NCBI GenBank assembly: GCA_021847325.1 | Contig: JAJZTY010000004.1 | Coordinates: forward strand, 1 to 43,495 | Origin: Bacillota bacterium | GTDB lineage: Bacteria; Bacillota_I; Bacilli_A; Erysipelotrichales; Erysipelotrichaceae | Length of the DNA stretch: 43,495 nt | Reading direction: 5' to 3' | Part shown: piece by piece, positions 30,235 through 38,543 of the stretch | Position numbering within the stretch: the stretch's first letter is position 1 | Layout: every line of letters begins with the position of its first letter | Position numbers and translations under genes: made by a program | Notes under the pieces: generated by a model | What the model was told of the DNA's origin: nothing | Database searches by the model: none | The model's input: only the letters and a program-made list of their open reading frames with translations

Positions 30235-32100
30235 ATGAAAATTGCGATAGCACAATTAAATATAAGATGTGGTCAAATAGATTTTAATCTTGATTCTATG
30301 AAACGAATGGTGGATCAAGCGGTGAATGATAAGGCAGATATCATTGTGTTTCCTGAGATGTGTGTAGGTGGTTATCTTTTATCTGATTTATATTTACAGA
30401 AATCATTTGTGTCACAACTTTTAAATGCGAATGAAGTAATTAAGTCTTGGTCAGAGGATATTGGTATTATTTGGGGTAATATAAGTCATTTTGATGACTT
30501 GAAATCCAACCGAGATGGTCGTTTTAATCGTTTCAATACCGCATTTTTTGCGTTTAAAAATAAATGGGTAAAGAAAGAGAATAGTCTATTAGATGGACAT
30601 TATTTCAAACATTGTTTACCTGATTATCGTTTTTTTGACGACTCACGTTATTTTAAGAGTGGATATGATTATGCATTAGAAAATAATCTCTTATTAAATG
30701 ATTCTATTAATCCATTTATTTTTATCAAGGATAATAAAACAGTTCGAATTGGTCTAGAAGTTTGCGAGGATTTATGGAGTAAGGATTATTTAGTTGATCC
30801 TACTGCAATTTATATTCAGCACAAGGTAGATTTCATTATCAATATTTCATCATCACCTTGGACTTTAAATAAAGAATTGAGTCGTGAGAAACGTATTAAG
30901 GAACATGTGCATACACATAAGGAAAATATGGTACCACTTATTTATGTTAATGCATGTGGTATGCAAAATAATGGAAAAAATGTATTAGTGTTTGATGGGG
31001 ACAGTACAATTTATCAAAAAGATGGTTCTGTTTTAGGTCAATTAAAAGATGATTTTAAAGAAGAAGTTAAAGTATTTGATTTGGATTTAAAATACTCTGA
31101 ACATGAGACATCGAATAAATTACTGAATGCCCTCGTATGTGCGATACATGAATTTGATAAACAAGTTTTACCATTTAAACCAAAATGGATTATTGGTTTA
31201 TCGGGTGGAATCGATAGTAGTGTGAATGTTGCGTTGTTGTGTATGGCGTTAGGGAATGATCGTGTTATTGGATATAATATGGCAAGTCGATACAATCAAG
31301 CTCAAACCAAAAACATAGCCTTTGAGACAGCTCAAAAATTAAATATAGAGTATCATGCAGGGAGTATCGAACAGCTTGTTAAGGCAACAGAATCCACATT
31401 AGAAGAGTATCAAATTGATCCTAAAGAAGGGTTAGCTTATGAGAATATTCAAGCACGTTTAAGAGGACATTTACTTTCTTCTTTTGCGTCGTATAAAGGT
31501 GGAGTCATTTGTAATAATGGGAATAAAGTTGAATGTGCGTTAGGCTATGCGACGTTATATGGTGACACTATTGGTGCGTTGAGTCCTTTGGGAGATTGTA
31601 CCAAACTTCAGGTTTTTGAATTAGCGAAGTTGATTAATGAATACTATAAGGATGAAATTATTAATTCTAATTTAATTCCTACCATAAAATCAGATTCAAT
31701 TGAATTTGGATTTGCGCCAAGTGCAGAACTTCGTGACAATCAAGTTGATCCTATGAAGTGGGTCTATCATGATTGGTTAGTTCAATATTTCATTCAATAT
31801 CCAAGTCATCATATTATTGATTGGTTAAAAATGTATGTGACAGGTGAATGGAAGAAGACTGAGATTGCGAGTTGGATGGTTTATTATGGTTTAGATAATC
31901 CAAAGAATTTTGTAGAAGATACACGATGGTTCATGAAATCTTGGCATAGTGCTATTTTCAAACGTATACAGTTCCCACCTATTGTGACAGTTAGTCGTGG
32001 TAGTTTTGGATATGATTATCGTGAAAGTCAGATTCCATATACCGAGAATTACGAAGTAAAAGAGTTGTTTAATCAGATATTAAGTGGGGGAAAAGTATGA
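30235..32100 (+). CDS. nadE: Glutamine-dependent NAD+ synthetase
   Basis: N-terminal nitrilase domain (FPEMCVGGY, LEVCEDLW) plus synthetase 'IGLSGGIDSSVNVAL'. Confidence 0.96.
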   Translation: MKIAIAQLNIRCGQIDFNLDSMKRMVDQAVNDKADIIVFPEMCVGGYLLSDLYLQKSFVSQLLNANEVIKSWSEDIGIIWGNISHFDDLKSNRDGRFNRFNTAFFAFKNKWVKKENSLLDGHYFKHCLPDYRFFDDSRYFKSGYDYALENNLLLNDSINPFIFIKDNKTVRIGLEVCEDLWSKDYLVDPTAIYIQHKVDFIINISSSPWTLNKELSREKRIKEHVHTHKENMVPLIYVNACGMQNNGKNVLVFDGDSTIYQKDGSVLGQLKDDFKEEVKVFDLDLKYSEHETSNKLLNALVCAIHEFDKQVLPFKPKWIIGLSGGIDSSVNVALLCMALGNDRVIGYNMASRYNQAQTKNIAFETAQKLNIEYHAGSIEQLVKATESTLEEYQIDPKEGLAYENIQARLRGHLLSSFASYKGGVICNNGNKVECALGYATLYGDTIGALSPLGDCTKLQVFELAKLINEYYKDEIINSNLIPTIKSDSIEFGFAPSAELRDNQVDPMKWVYHDWLVQYFIQYPSHHIIDWLKMYVTGEWKKTEIASWMVYYGLDNPKNFVEDTRWFMKSWHSAIFKRIQFPPIVTVSRGSFGYDYRESQIPYTENYEVKELFNQILSGGKV

Positions 32101-33239
32101 AAAAATGGTTAGATTCAAGTCATATATCTTTAATTTTATCAATCACATTAGCTGGATTATTTATTGTGGCAATTTATTTTGCGATTCTTAATATTAATGT
32201 ATTTATTGAATTAATCAATGATTTAGGTAGTGTTTTAACTCCATTCATGTATGGATTAATTCTTGCGTTCTTGATGAGTCCGATTGTAAGTTTTTTTGAG
32301 ATGAAAGCATTCGCAAGTTTCAAATGGAAGAAAAGCACAAAGCGTATTCTATCTGTGTTGTTGTCTCTTTTAATTACCTTTGAAATAATCGTTTTATTCT
32401 TTTCTTTCATTATTCCTCAATTGATTATTAGTTTGAGTTCTATAAGTGAGAAGTTACCTGAATATATCGTAATTGTGGAAGATCTTTTAGGTGAGTGGTT
32501 AGTATCATATCGGTTAGATAATGAATGGGTTAATTTATTATTGGATTCTTCTGAAGATTTATTAGTTACATTCTTAAAAACGATACAAGGTTATCTTCCT
32601 CTTATCTTAGATTATTCTTGGCAATTTACGAAAATGATATTTAACTTATTATTAGGAATTGCGATTGCGATGTATGTTTTAATTGATCGTGAACGCTTTA
32701 GTTTACAAGCTAAAAAGTTGATCTATTTTATTTCGAATCAAAAAACTGGGGATTATTTAATTGATTTAAGCCGATTATCTTCAAGTATGGTGCATCGTTT
32801 TATCTTAGGTAAAATGTTGGATTCATTTATCATAGGTGTGATTTGTTATGTGGGGATGTTAGTTTTAGGGTTATCATATCCACTTCTCTTATCGGTTATT
32901 GTTGGTGTTACAAATATGATTCCTGTGTTTGGGCCTTTTATAGGAGCGATACCGGGTGCTTTAATACTTTTATTGGTTGATCCATTTCAAGCTCTATGGT
33001 TTATCTTATTCATTATTCTTTTACAACAATTTGATGGTAATTTCTTAGGTCCACGTATTTTAGGCGATTCAATGGGCTTACCTAGTTTATGGATTATGTT
33101 TGCGATTATTGTTGGTGGAGGATATTTTGGAGTCGTTGGAATGTTTTTAGGAGTACCTATTTTTGCGGTAATTTATATTATTAGTAAAAAGATTATTTCA
33201 AACAAATTGGAGAAGGATTCGATTCAAATCAAGACATAA
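32097..33239 (+). CDS. AI-2E family transporter (YdbI/PerM-like)
   Basis: Polytopic, 'GVTNMIPVFGPFIGAIPGALILLL', 'DGNFLGPRILGDSMGLPSLWIMFAIIVGGG'. Confidence 0.92.
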   Translation: MKKWLDSSHISLILSITLAGLFIVAIYFAILNINVFIELINDLGSVLTPFMYGLILAFLMSPIVSFFEMKAFASFKWKKSTKRILSVLLSLLITFEIIVLFFSFIIPQLIISLSSISEKLPEYIVIVEDLLGEWLVSYRLDNEWVNLLLDSSEDLLVTFLKTIQGYLPLILDYSWQFTKMIFNLLLGIAIAMYVLIDRERFSLQAKKLIYFISNQKTGDYLIDLSRLSSSMVHRFILGKMLDSFIIGVICYVGMLVLGLSYPLLLSVIVGVTNMIPVFGPFIGAIPGALILLLVDPFQALWFILFIILLQQFDGNFLGPRILGDSMGLPSLWIMFAIIVGGGYFGVVGMFLGVPIFAVIYIISKKIISNKLEKDSIQIKT

Positions 33240-33242
33240 GAA

Positions 33243-33277
33243 AATCCCTTATTAACTAAGTTAGTAAGGGATTATTT
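33243..33277. terminator. Bidirectional terminator between AI-2E gene and lysC
   Basis: AATCCCTTATTAAC-taa-GTTAGTAAGGGATT (one G:U) then ATTTTT. Confidence 0.8.
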
Positions 33278-34594
33278 TTAAAGACGTATAAATCTTTCGT
33301 ATAGTGTTTTGATTGTTGATTCATAATCACTATTTGATACACCTACAATGATGCTTATTTCATCAGTACCTTGTGCAATTAATCTAATGTTAATTTTCTT
33401 TTCACCTAAAGCACTAAATAATTGACCTGATACACCTGGTTTATCTTTCATATTACGTCCAACAACTGAGATTAAAGCTAAGTCATCTTCAAATGTAAGC
33501 TTATCAATGTCGCATTTCTGTTTTAAATCAGCAAATAAATCAAATTGGTGTTCTTTCAATAACTCAGCTTTTACTGTTAAGCTTAAACTGTCTATTCCTT
33601 TTGACATATGATCAATTAATAAATCATAGTACTCGAATAGTTCAAGGACTTGTCTTATTACAAGAGGTGAGCGTGCAATCTGTTCCTTGTGGACTGTCAC
33701 TACCGCAAAGTCCTTTAAACCAGTAATTCCCGTAATAAATCCTTTAACTTGTATATCTTCTTCAATATCATTGCGAATCATGGTCCCAGGATGATGCATA
33801 TCGTTTGTATTTCTAATGTTTAGTGGTATGTTCAAATGCTTAACTGCTTGTATAGACTCTTCATGTAAAACAGAGGCACCCATAAAAGTTAGTTCTCTTA
33901 ATTCACCGTATGTGAGCTCGGGTATGGGCTTTGCGTTTGCTACTATTCTTGGATCTGCCATCATTATCCCGCTGACATCAGTCCAATTCTCGTAGATATC
34001 TGCATTTAATGCTGCTGCTACAATTGAACCAGTAATATCTGAACCCCCACGTTTCATAAGTTTTATTCGACCATTAGGCAGAGCACCATAAAATCCAGGT
34101 ATTACAAATCGAGGATATTGTTGAGCGAGTGTTTGTATTTTTTGACTAGTCATTTTAAAATCAACAGTTCCATCACTATTCATAACAATCGCATCTTTAG
34201 CATCAATCATTGGCCAACCAAGATATTCAGCGCATAAAATAGCACTTAATTTTTCTCCAACCGATACGAGTTTGTCACGTTCATATTTTGCATTTAATTG
34301 TGATTTCAGCTGGTTGAAAAAATTTCTTACATCAAAATTTAAATTAAGATCTTTTTGAATAGAAGTATATCTTTCTATTATTTCATTTAATAATACTTGG
34401 TAATCTACACCATACAATAAATGAGCATGTAAAAGATAGAGTAAATCCGTTATTTTGTTTTGTGTTTGAATTGACTTACCAACAGCCGAAACAACTACGA
34501 TTCTTCTATCAGAATCTTCATTAATAATTGCTTTTATTTTTTCGAATTGGTTCGCATTGGCAAGTGATGAACCTCCAAATTTACATATTTTCAT
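33278..34594 (-). CDS. lysC: Aspartate kinase
   Basis: 'MKICKFGGSSLANANQFEKI', 'VSAVGK', 'LMKRGGSDITGSIVAAAL', C-terminal ACT 'ISVVGRNMKDKPGVSGQLFSAL'. Confidence 0.95.
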   Translation of the reverse strand: MKICKFGGSSLANANQFEKIKAIINEDSDRRIVVVSAVGKSIQTQNKITDLLYLLHAHLLYGVDYQVLLNEIIERYTSIQKDLNLNFDVRNFFNQLKSQLNAKYERDKLVSVGEKLSAILCAEYLGWPMIDAKDAIVMNSDGTVDFKMTSQKIQTLAQQYPRFVIPGFYGALPNGRIKLMKRGGSDITGSIVAAALNADIYENWTDVSGIMMADPRIVANAKPIPELTYGELRELTFMGASVLHEESIQAVKHLNIPLNIRNTNDMHHPGTMIRNDIEEDIQVKGFITGITGLKDFAVVTVHKEQIARSPLVIRQVLELFEYYDLLIDHMSKGIDSLSLTVKAELLKEHQFDLFADLKQKCDIDKLTFEDDLALISVVGRNMKDKPGVSGQLFSALGEKKINIRLIAQGTDEISIIVGVSNSDYESTIKTLYERFIRL

Positions 34595-35802
34595 TGATTC
34601 TCCTTTTTCTTTATTCCGGCATAGAATATGGGTTCGAGTTGTTTTAATTGATGCATTAAGTTATGGAATCGTGATACTTGAATATTCTTTGTTATTCGAT
34701 AAATTCGATTTCCTTGAATCCATTTGAATACCGTTATTGCCTCTAAAAAACCTGATTTAAGAGATTTACTCGTTCTTACTAAGTAGGCATGTGATAGTTC
34801 ATTGTTATCAATATTCTTTAAACTTCTTTCTTCAGGTAACATTCCTTTCGCATCTTCTTTTATTTGATACAAGTCTCTAAGAATATTACCAGCTGTTGGC
34901 AATCCACCAGCTCCTTGGCCAATAAGCGCTTGGTGCTTACCGCTCATATCGGTAAACCATGCAATATTGTGATTACTTAAAATGGTTGCCTCAGCATTAT
35001 CTGAGTTAAAAAGTTGAGGTTCAACATAGGCACTATGGCCTAGATTTGTTTTTATCATCGTCGCAAATAAGCGTATATGATATCCCAAAGATTGAATAAA
35101 CTCGACGTCTTTAGTTTGAATTGAATCAATACCTGTACAAGGGATACTATCTATATTTATCCATGTGTTAAATGCGATAACACCTGATAATCTTATTTTA
35201 TTTAAGCTGTCCCAACCTAATATGTCTGCACTGGGATCTTTTTCAGCATAACCTAGTGTTTGTGCTTCTGAAAGTGCTTCTTCAAATGTACAAGATTCTC
35301 TTTCCATTTTATCTAAAATAAAGTTACTTGTTCCATTGAGAATCCCTCCAATAGCACTAATTTGAGTATGTTTTTTTACTTCTATTAATGTTGATAAGTA
35401 AGGTATACCTCCACCAACTGCAGCGCTAAAACGTAAAACAACTCCATTCTCTTTTGCGCAAGTATCAAGCTCATCACCGAATCGATTTATCAATGCTTTA
35501 TTTGCAGTTACGACAGATTTTTTAGCTTTTAGAGCCTCTATGATATATGTCCTAGCAGGTTCAATTCCACCTAAACATTCAACAACAATCTCTATTTTAG
35601 GATCTGATAGAAGATCTTCAATACTTTCAACCATATCACTTCGATTTGCCTTACTGATTCTTCTGAGTATTTTTGCAATAAAGAAAGCATCGGATGCTTT
35701 GTCAGTTAAGAGTGATTCTAAACCTTTCCCGACTGTTCCATAGCCGAGTAAGCCAATTCCGATGCGGTTATTTGCGCTGTTTTTAGATACATCTGTTTTC
35801 AT
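34591..35802 (-). CDS. hom: Homoserine dehydrogenase, truncated C-terminus relative to ACT-containing forms
   Basis: 'GIGLLGYGTVGKGL', 'VTANKALI', 'FSAAVGGGIPYLSTL', 'GILNGTSNFILDKME'. Confidence 0.95.
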   Translation of the reverse strand: MKTDVSKNSANNRIGIGLLGYGTVGKGLESLLTDKASDAFFIAKILRRISKANRSDMVESIEDLLSDPKIEIVVECLGGIEPARTYIIEALKAKKSVVTANKALINRFGDELDTCAKENGVVLRFSAAVGGGIPYLSTLIEVKKHTQISAIGGILNGTSNFILDKMERESCTFEEALSEAQTLGYAEKDPSADILGWDSLNKIRLSGVIAFNTWINIDSIPCTGIDSIQTKDVEFIQSLGYHIRLFATMIKTNLGHSAYVEPQLFNSDNAEATILSNHNIAWFTDMSGKHQALIGQGAGGLPTAGNILRDLYQIKEDAKGMLPEERSLKNIDNNELSHAYLVRTSKSLKSGFLEAITVFKWIQGNRIYRITKNIQVSRFHNLMHQLKQLEPIFYAGIKKKENQ

Positions 35803-35803
35803 A

Positions 35804-35831
35804 TTGAAAACATTCTAGCATCGTGTATAAT
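35804..35831 (+). promoter_or_regulatory. thrC promoter
   Basis: TTGAAA (35804-35809) - 16 bp - TATAAT (35826-35831). Confidence 0.7.
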
Positions 35832-35840
35832 TAAAAACAA
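35812..35840 (-). promoter_or_regulatory. hom promoter, overlapping thrC promoter
   Basis: Minus strand TTGTTT - 17 bp - TAGAAT with extended TGC; 9 nt before hom ATG. Confidence 0.6.
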
Positions 35841-35847
35841 GTGAAAT

Positions 35848-37266
35848 ATGAAACTCTATAGTACACGTAATCGAAAAATAGAAACAACAGGTTTAAATGC
35901 ATTGATTCAACCATTAGCTCCGGATGGAGGACTGTGGATGTTCGAATTATTTCCGATAGTAAATTGGAATGAATGGATCAATAAACCATTTAAAGAGATT
36001 GTAAGTAATGTATTAAATGTTTTTTTAAGTGAGTTAAACGAAGAACTAATGACTACTGCCATAAATAATGCCTATGATCGGTTCGATCATCCAGAGATAA
36101 TTAATAGCATTTTTATTAAGCATCAGGTTGTTGAATTATTTTATGGGCCAAGTGCAGCATTTAAAGATGTGGCACTAAGTCTATTGCCTGAATTAACTAA
36201 GATTGCTTTTAATCAATTAAGTATTAATACATTGCCTCATATATTAACCGCTACCAGTGGGGATACTGGATCTGCAGCTCTTAATGGCTTTGGGGCAGCA
36301 AATTATGCGATTACTGTTTTTTATCCTGAAAAGGGTATTAGTTCGATTCAACGTAAACAGATGACGTGTATCGATTATAAAGATGCAAAGGTATATGGTA
36401 TACAAGGCAATTTTGATGATGCACAAAGGGTTGTTAAGAATCTTTTTAAAAACGATCTTAAACTTCAATTTGGATCAGCGAATTCGATAAATATTGGTCG
36501 ATTGATTCCACAAATAGCTTATTATTTTAAAGCTTATGGAGATGCGATAAAGAATGGGAAAATAGATTTAGGAAACTCATTAAGTTTTTCAGTCCCGAGT
36601 GGTAATTTTGGAAATGCGTTTGCAGGTTATTGTGCAATGCGATTAGGATTACCAATTAGGCACTTAATAATTGGTTCTAATGAGAATGACGTATTAACTA
36701 ACTTTTTTAATTATGGTATATATGATGCGAACAAGTTATTTAAGCATACACTATCACCATCAATGGATATTCTTTTTTCAAGTAATTTAGAAAGACTTTT
36801 ATACTCATTTAGTGATACAGATTATGTAAAAAAAATAATGAAAAATCTTGATGTGGAGAAAAAATATACTATAAGTGATGATCTAAAACAAAGGATTGAG
36901 CAGGTTTTTAAAGCTTATTCAATTACTGAATTAGAAATGAAAAATACTATAAAAAGTGTTTATGAAAATGAGGGATACTGCTTAGATCCTCATACAGCGG
37001 TTGCATGGGCAAGTGCGGATTTATATCAATTAGAAAACCCACATCAAGCGATAGCAGTATTATCTACTGCATCTCCTTATAAATTTCCAAGTACAGTTTT
37101 AGATGCATTGGGATATGAAAGTACAGTTGATGATTTTGAAAATTTAGATCATTTAAATAAAATTATTAAGACACCTATTCCAGTGTGTTTGGATTCACTT
37201 AAAAATAAAAAAGAATTACATACTCAAGTACTAACGATAGATCAAGCGGAGCACTTATATGATTAA
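35848..37266 (+). CDS. thrC: Threonine synthase
   Basis: 'MKLYSTRNRK', 'VELFYGPSAAFKDVALSLLP', 'ATSGDTGSAALNGF', 'VPSGNFGNAFAGYCAMRLGLP'. Confidence 0.96.
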   Translation: MKLYSTRNRKIETTGLNALIQPLAPDGGLWMFELFPIVNWNEWINKPFKEIVSNVLNVFLSELNEELMTTAINNAYDRFDHPEIINSIFIKHQVVELFYGPSAAFKDVALSLLPELTKIAFNQLSINTLPHILTATSGDTGSAALNGFGAANYAITVFYPEKGISSIQRKQMTCIDYKDAKVYGIQGNFDDAQRVVKNLFKNDLKLQFGSANSINIGRLIPQIAYYFKAYGDAIKNGKIDLGNSLSFSVPSGNFGNAFAGYCAMRLGLPIRHLIIGSNENDVLTNFFNYGIYDANKLFKHTLSPSMDILFSSNLERLLYSFSDTDYVKKIMKNLDVEKKYTISDDLKQRIEQVFKAYSITELEMKNTIKSVYENEGYCLDPHTAVAWASADLYQLENPHQAIAVLSTASPYKFPSTVLDALGYESTVDDFENLDHLNKIIKTPIPVCLDSLKNKKELHTQVLTIDQAEHLYD

Positions 37267-38116
37267 AATAAAAGTACCTGCAACGAGTGCGAATATTGGG
37301 CCTGGATTTGATTGTCTCGGATTAGCTCTTGATTTATATGCGAATTTTGAAGTGGATAGAAATAATGAGTATGAAATGGTAGGATTTGAATCAGTTAAAA
37401 ATATATTCTTAGATGCATACCAATATACATGTAATGTTAAAAAATGGGATGATGTTCCAATCAAATGTAAAATGATATCTGATATTCCTATGGCACGAGG
37501 ATTAGGTTCTAGTGCAGCATTAATTGTTGGTGGAATAGCTTGTGCAATGATTATTCATACTAATAAATTAGATAAAGAAGAATTAATTAATTTATCGAAT
37601 CAAATGGAAGGACATCCAGATAATGTTGTGCCTGCGATTATCGGAGGGTTGTGTGCCTCTAAGTTATACGGAAAGAATGTTGAGGTTATCCAATATAATA
37701 TTCATGAGCGATATCAATTTTCACTATTAATTCCTGATTTTGTGTTATCGACAGAATATAGTCGAAATATACTACCTAAAATGATTGATCGATCTATTGC
37801 AAGTTATAACCTATCACAAATACCTTTTTTGTTAGATGGTTTAATCAATGGTGATGCAAGGCGATTAAAACATGCATTAGTTGATAAGCTACATCAAGAT
37901 ATCCGTTTTACACTCAATACAGATTTTAGTGTTATTTGTGACCAGCTCAATAAATTAAATAGAATGTATTATCTTAGTGGTGCGGGACCAAGTATCATGA
38001 TCATACACGATGGAGTTGATAAAATAATACTTAATTTTGATAAAACAAAATCGAAATGGAGCCTAATACCGGTTAAAATAGATTTGAAAGGAATTGTTTG
38101 GTCCTATGAATCCTGA
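37259..38116 (+). CDS. thrB: Homoserine kinase (GHMP family)
   Basis: 'IKVPATSANIGPGFDCLGLAL', 'IPMARGLGSSAALIVGGI'. Confidence 0.95.
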   Translation: MIKIKVPATSANIGPGFDCLGLALDLYANFEVDRNNEYEMVGFESVKNIFLDAYQYTCNVKKWDDVPIKCKMISDIPMARGLGSSAALIVGGIACAMIIHTNKLDKEELINLSNQMEGHPDNVVPAIIGGLCASKLYGKNVEVIQYNIHERYQFSLLIPDFVLSTEYSRNILPKMIDRSIASYNLSQIPFLLDGLINGDARRLKHALVDKLHQDIRFTLNTDFSVICDQLNKLNRMYYLSGAGPSIMIIHDGVDKIILNFDKTKSKWSLIPVKIDLKGIVWSYES

Positions 38117-38543
38117 GTTTCTTATTATTAATAAAAAATTAGTATCTGAAACATATATAAAGGTGATTGAAGCACGAGAGTTAGTAATGAATCATCATGT
38201 TAAAGATATAAGTGAAGCGTGTAAGCGTCTTGGTTTATCTCGCTCAAGTTATTACAAATATAAAGATTTAGTATATCGCTTAGATGAAATTCGAATGACT
38301 CGAAAGGCTATATTATCTTTATTGTTAGATCATTATCAAGGAGTTCTTTCTGAAGTTTTGAAGATGATCGCTTTTACAAATGCAAATGTATTAACTCTAA
38401 CTCAAAATTATCCAATTCATGATAAGGCTTCAGTTGTAATAATGTTAGACATCTTGGAAATGCATGGAACATTAGAAGAGTTGTTAAATCAATTAAAAAG
38501 TATTAAAGGTGTGAGCAATATTCAACTCTTAGATTTAGAATAA
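38106..38543 (+). CDS. UPF0735/PheB-like ACT domain protein with N-terminal HTH-like segment
   Basis: 'IINKKLVSETYIKVIEARELVMNHHVKDISEACKRLGLSRSSYYKYKDLVY' then ACT domain; ATG 38106 chosen. Confidence 0.85.
   Translation: MNPEFLIINKKLVSETYIKVIEARELVMNHHVKDISEACKRLGLSRSSYYKYKDLVYRLDEIRMTRKAILSLLLDHYQGVLSEVLKMIAFTNANVLTLTQNYPIHDKASVVIMLDILEMHGTLEELLNQLKSIKGVSNIQLLDLE

Follow-up and report, generated by a model that had tools for sequence, protein, structure and literature searches.

The window, a 43,495-nt stretch of a Bacillota contig, contains two divergent sets of threonine pathway genes that face away from each other across a 45-bp gap (Table 1). The earlier note had assigned hom-lysC to one arm and thrC-thrB-ACT to the other, and family matches bore this out. 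The last gene of the thrC operon scored 155.4 bits against the NF003361 model (cut-off 131), and a control search with the NF003361/PRK04435 family also matched B. subtilis. We take the protein of this family to be ThrR and refer to the gene as thrR. The ATG at 38106 is the likelier start as compared to the TTG at 38094. The predicted ThrR structure (pLDDT 93) consists of a three-helix helix-turn-helix followed by an ACT domain, and residues S45, R46, Y50, K51, K53 and D54, which lie within or close to the third (recognition) helix, are invariant. A sequence search for a solved structure of a ThrR relative found none, and a fold search with the ThrR model returned ACT domains and NikR, which are used here as analogies only. 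On the far side of the minus-strand arm, a terminator-like 14-bp stem (33243-33273) lies between the convergent lysC and an open reading frame at 32097-33239.

Table 1. Genes, promoter elements and candidate regulatory sites at the hom-thrC locus (positions refer to the window)
Feature	Position	Strand	Basis or remark
lysC, aspartate kinase	33278-34594	-	ORF and family assignment; 4-bp overlap with hom
hom, homoserine dehydrogenase, 403 aa	34591-35802	-	ORF and family assignment
thrC, threonine synthase	35848-37266	+	ORF and family assignment
thrB, homoserine kinase	37259-38116	+	ORF and family assignment
thrR, HTH-ACT regulator, end of thrC operon	38106-38543	+	NF003361/PRK04435 above cut-off
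71-nt tract identical in four clade genomes	35786-35856	.	next longest run 14
O1, candidate ThrR operator, GATACA-TC-TGTTTT (GATACATCTGTTTT)	35786-35799	.	PWM, predicted binding; hom codons 2-6
Equivalent of ancestral thrC -35, CTGTTT	35793-35798	+	
hom start codon	35800-35802	-	moved up against operator; predicted 3-nt leader
thrC -35, TTGAAA	35804-35809	+	clade-specific
hom extended -10, TGC-TAGAAT	35812-35820 (TAGAAT 35817-35812)	-	on ancestral shared -10 (minus TGATACAAT)
Decayed ancestral thrC -10, TAGCAT	35816-35821	+	TATCAT in 81/86 relatives
thrC -10, TATAAT	35826-35831	+	10 bp downstream of ancestral -10
hom -35, TTGTTT	35840-35835	-	at its conserved place, with the 17-bp spacer; 86% of 86 modules have TTG
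O2, second operator-like site, rc ATTTCACTTGTTTT, 11/14	35834-35847	-	candidate; over hom -35 and degraded thrC RBS

Two promoters had been placed between the hom start (35802) and the thrC start (35848), a plus-strand TTGAAA-N16-TATAAT (35804-35831) and a minus-strand TTGTTT-N17-(TGC)TAGAAT (35840-35812). Their hexamers and coordinates were confirmed, as were the 45-bp gap and the 8 bp between the -10 boxes. The plus promoter matches 11 of 12 consensus positions and ranks first among the 64 promoter-like sites of a scanned 13.5-kb stretch, where such sites are not enriched overall (64 observed vs 70 in shuffles). Among random 45-mers of the same composition, a plus-strand 11/12 site arose with a chance of 5.5e-4, and at least 11 matches on one strand together with at least 8 on the other with a chance of 1.2e-3; a chance origin of the plus promoter is unlikely (about 6e-4). 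The minus promoter, with 8 of 12 consensus positions and a TG extended -10, is too weak to persuade by itself. It appears convincing only through comparison with relatives, because its -35, -10, TG and 17-bp spacer match the hom promoter positions kept in 86 non-redundant relatives.

The predicted transcription start sites (TSSs) lie at 35805 on the minus strand and at about 35838 on the plus strand. A bidirectional promoter has been defined (Warman/Grainger) as one with divergent TSSs 7-25 bp apart (PMC10268837) that surround a shared -10 or lie within it. With a predicted spacing of about 33 bp, and with separate rather than shared -10 boxes, the arrangement falls outside this class and is, by the predicted TSSs, one of overlapping divergent promoters. 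The geometry of these TSSs makes it plausible that two polymerases would be precluded from occupying the region at the same time.

The predicted leaders are about 3 nt for hom and about 10 nt for thrC, which supports the earlier proposal of near-leaderless mRNAs. The hom start is the sole possible one, with an in-frame TAG five codons upstream and no further ATG, GTG or TTG before the NAD-binding motif. In leaderless genes the -10 is expected about 7 nt before a start that lacks a Shine-Dalgarno (SD) sequence; hom has no SD, and TAGAAT ends 9 nt before its ATG. A -10 hexamer stands 6-9 nt ahead of the start in 5 of 36 window genes, as compared to 2% of all ATGs in the window. These starts, at 1512 (-), 4807 (+), 18550 (+), 21963 (+) and 35802 (-), mostly have the TG as well, and leaderless mRNAs look common in this genome. 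A near-leaderless hom is therefore supported by its single possible start, its lack of an SD and the -10 hexamers near other starts. An Rfam search of the whole window matched no family, and RNA-based control was rejected on this result. Together with the short leaders, it also bears out the suggestion that riboswitch, T-box or attenuator control is absent.

The divergent layout recurs in about ninety loci of the same family and of neighbouring ones, which share a 36-nt block without gaps, AAAACACTTGTTTT-N9-AACATtGTATCAT; a conserved CAA comes next. Taken strand by strand, the block contains a palindrome, AAAACACTTGTTTT (AAAACA-CT-TGTTTT), whose right arm is the thrC -35 (TTGTTT/TTGTAT). A 17-bp spacer separates this -35 from a ten-base element, ATTGTATCAT, which is both the thrC -10 (TATCAT) and, on the opposite strand, the hom extended -10 (TGATACAAT). 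All 86 non-redundant modules contain the palindrome core, ACANNTGT; the thrC -10 reads TATCAT in 81 of them, and the hom extended -10 reads TG-A-TACAAT or a close variant, with the TG in 83. The conserved CAA corresponds to the TTG with which the hom -35 starts, found in 86% of the 86 modules at exactly 17 bp; the mean match to TTGACA is 3.6 at this offset vs 0.8-2.1 at every other. At its fourth position the thrC -10 has a conserved C where the consensus has an A, and this C pairs with the G of the TG in TGATACAAT, the kind of trade-off that a single element in use on both strands should show.

The predicted TSS spacing in the relatives is 23 bp, within the 7-25 bp of the definition and equal to one of the preferred TSS distances of E. 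coli bidirectional promoters (PMC12825309). With its shared -10 and elements for both directions, the ancestral module would accordingly fit the definition of a bidirectional promoter, as judged from predicted TSSs. It also resembles known bacterial bidirectional promoters (PMC12825309, PMC10268837) in having a single -10 common to both strands, unlike the window clade, where the -10s and predicted TSSs have moved apart. The hom leader measures 32-75 nt in 78 relatives, 73 of which have an SD. The 45 bp constitute the core of a conserved Firmicutes cis-module, whose layout is ancient and widespread in that group.

The distribution of the module points toward ThrR. A single pattern query that covered the block, including the variant in the window, was run over 84,980 species genomes. 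Among the about 85,000 genomes it gave 111 exact matches, 110 directly upstream of thrC and one upstream of thrR, in taxa that include Erysipelotrichaceae, Acetobacterium, Eubacterium, Alkalibacter, Gemella, Vagococcus, a Lactobacillus and Lachnospiraceae MAGs. All 111 operator-like sites, degenerate in the window, are thus at thrC or thrR, as expected of a ThrR regulon with its site at the hom and thrC promoters. The exception, in Clostridium caldaquaticum (L230, near 6394), is a complete module 163 nt upstream of a thrR gene that stands alone, which points to autoregulation of ThrR away from the threonine operon.

The block is present in 94 of 96 loci with an adjacent thrR vs 2 of 14 without one, counts that are not independent because the genomes are related. 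Those two genomes (G107 and G064, loci L038 and L040; 96% complete) lack thrR altogether and have a broken palindrome (AAAAGACTTGCAAC) beside an intact -10. Neither the block nor a full-length ThrR was present in seven order-level genomes that were tested for both. In a sample of 16 genomes that carry the module, mostly chosen because thrR was not seen beside thrC, 15 were found to have thrR, and the miss is a 1.4-Mb assembly. The palindrome was not found near thrR at the thrR loci of some sister families. The co-loss of thrR and palindrome, together with the C. caldaquaticum module, would be hard to explain without a link to ThrR.

In the relatives the palindrome stands within the predicted hom 5' leader, about 7-20 nt after the TSS, where it could be read as an RNA element of that leader instead of a DNA operator. 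We regard this as extremely improbable: a hairpin loop would need more than the 2 nt that separate the arms, no Rfam family matches, and the palindrome also falls exactly on the thrC -35, stands upstream of thrR in C. caldaquaticum and is lost along with a protein that has a DNA-binding fold.

A position weight matrix (PWM) of the 36-nt module, built without the window clade, placed the module in the window at 35786-35821. This was rank 1 of 86,920 positions, at 21.8 bits vs -6.2 for the next, a lead of 28 bits, and puts the ancestral operator position inside hom. As a 14-mer on its own, this candidate operator (O1) ranked 12 of about 87,000 with 7.8 bits, as compared to at least 12.6 bits for the sites of relatives. 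Its half-sites are intact, its centre TC is unique to the clade, and it is identical in the four clade genomes. The regulatory unit thus appears to extend past the 45 bp and to include 35786-35802 inside hom. The idea that the compact layout leaves no room for regulation was refuted by this apparent operator, which overlaps both hom codons 2-6 and the ancestral thrC -35.

The window clade has a compacted derivative of the module, squeezed into about 70 bases. The hom start has shifted into the apparent operator, with the predicted leader shrinking from 32-75 nt to about 3 nt and the SD being lost. The hom promoter is the ancestral one, and the ancestral thrC promoter has decayed (CTGTTT / TAGCAT). 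With a near-consensus thrC promoter 10 bp further down, the -10 boxes overlap no more and the predicted TSS spacing becomes about 33 bp. Because the operator is degenerate, ThrR control may be weak or re-sited in the window. Scored with the operator PWM, the second operator-like site, O2, ranked 16 of about 87,000, and 20 sites of at least 11/14 exist in the window. An inversion of the promoter cassette was considered since the hom side in the window resembles the thrC side of relatives (CACTTGTTTT, then TAGAAT). It was rejected, as a gapless alignment with locus L027 and the PWM both give the block in its original orientation. A deletion of the hom leader was rejected on the same evidence; the start codon moved instead.

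The 71-nt tract is shared by G000, G004, G005 and G006, whose ThrC identity goes down to 60%. Between G000 and the other three the loci are 60-62% identical overall, with a next longest common run of 14. Among other module pairs at 55-65% ThrC identity (n=1,046), the longest run is 40 nt (38-40). The tract begins exactly at the first base of the operator. Assignable roles (hom codons 1-6, the operator, two -35 and two -10 elements, the thrC RBS and start) cover most of its bases, and roughly ten are without one. Compaction is the likely cause of the freeze; alternatively, a recent exchange or recombination of the segment may account for it.

The tract also bears on whether the region is regulated at all. 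The degenerate operator, and the invariant KTDVS encoded by hom codons 2-6, would suit two independent constitutive promoters that were packed together by genome compaction, with the remnant of the palindrome being conserved hom coding sequence. This is improbable given that the 71 bases are identical in the four genomes down to synonymous positions, when hom outside the tract is only 60% invariant in them, and that thrR is retained in all clade members. A different possibility is that O1 and O2, which flank both promoters at 48 bp centre to centre, are bridged by ThrR, which would hold both polymerases off. The operator would then have been split and re-centred in the clade, O1 being its degenerate form and O2 a reversed half-operator. 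Such bridging would explain a freeze of 71 bases starting at O1 and a protein-coding start that serves as operator; taken jointly, we consider the split and the bridging doubtful.

Our best reading, which we hold to be quite probable, is a shared divergent promoter repressed by ThrR that drives both threonine arms and its own regulator, and that has been compacted in the window clade. Ancestrally, a single ThrR operator, a palindrome, would cover the thrC -35, and ATTGTATCAT would act as the -10 of both thrC and hom, such that a single piece of DNA fires hom-lysC and thrC-thrB-thrR in opposite directions. When threonine is plentiful, ThrR is expected to occupy the operator and so to block the thrC -35 together with the region where the hom transcript begins, which would shut off both arms as well as thrR; falling threonine would release both arms. 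In the window clade, the hom start has been drawn into the apparent operator, hom is predicted to have become nearly leaderless, and thrC has gained a consensus promoter one helical turn downstream, which separates the -10s and leaves the polymerase footprints overlapping.

The earlier note had instead proposed a built-in switch between aspartate/homoserine supply and threonine formation. In this regulator-free scheme the promoters exclude each other, such that thrC-thrB is off when hom-lysC is high, and the reverse. The hexamers of each promoter do fall within the polymerase footprint of the other, and PMC12825309 states that there is steric exclusion at such promoters and that strong activation one way can repress the other. 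However, the same study found basal activity too low for competition at all five bidirectional promoters tested. Hom, ThrB and ThrC catalyse consecutive steps of one pathway, and the conserved element on the promoters is a single palindrome tied to the repressor ThrR, all of which leaves the switch unsupported. This operator-like palindrome is conserved more strongly than the rest of the module and is lost along with ThrR, which a regulator-free switch leaves unexplained. We therefore consider the switch very improbable: joint repression fits better than alternation because of the serial pathway, the ThrR-linked palindrome and the low basal firing in the E. coli study.

Repression by ThrR has precedent in B. 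subtilis, where ThrR represses hom-thrCB (Rosenberg et al. 2016, as cited in PMC8226366) and where a ThrR-site mutation raises hom expression from 275 to 970 units (PMC8226366). The two systems are alike in regulator family (NF003361/PRK04435), target genes and predicted repression, and also in the location of a known or candidate ThrR site in the hom promoter region. They differ in layout: in B. subtilis, hom, thrC and thrB form one operon and thrR lies elsewhere (spo0B-obg-thrR-pheA), whereas in the window hom-lysC and thrC-thrB-thrR diverge from a shared promoter region and thrR is within the regulated operon. Repression of both directions has a parallel in E. coli PacrA/acrR, a bidirectional promoter between a target operon and its regulator gene, where AcrR repressed both RNAs (PMC12825309). 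There the regulator is alone on one arm and activators act (PMC12825309), whereas here both arms hold pathway genes, the regulator is last in one operon and no activator is known. The Gram-positive plasmid pLS20 likewise has overlapping divergent promoters with operators, although these belong to a conjugation switch with DNA looping and no biosynthetic genes (PMC4207663).

While ThrR and bidirectional promoters are each known, their combination as a conserved module may be new: a literature search that was thin on subscription journals found neither a description of it nor of a clade with the operator absorbed into the hom start. In over a hundred Firmicutes genomes, the module offers a bidirectional promoter that is conserved in nature and meaningful for metabolism, and it yields a precise prediction of the ThrR operator outside Bacillus. 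Its trade-off is visible in the non-consensus C that the thrC -10 keeps and the hom extended -10 needs. The window clade has escaped this trade-off by shifting one -10 a helical turn, and exemplifies a predicted operator that has become part of a gene start. Comparing the two forms of the module would be a direct test of whether polymerase competition matters in nature.

Elsewhere in G000, RAWACANNTGTWTY occurs as 18 palindromic sites vs 3 in the reversed control. Of ten sites inspected, 8 are intragenic (O1 included) and 2 intergenic; a wider regulon in this genome was dropped from consideration, as the 2 intergenic sites flank no threonine gene. Among the relatives, the two genomes that have lost thrR and the palindrome and kept the -10 represent a natural test of a bidirectional promoter without its repressor.
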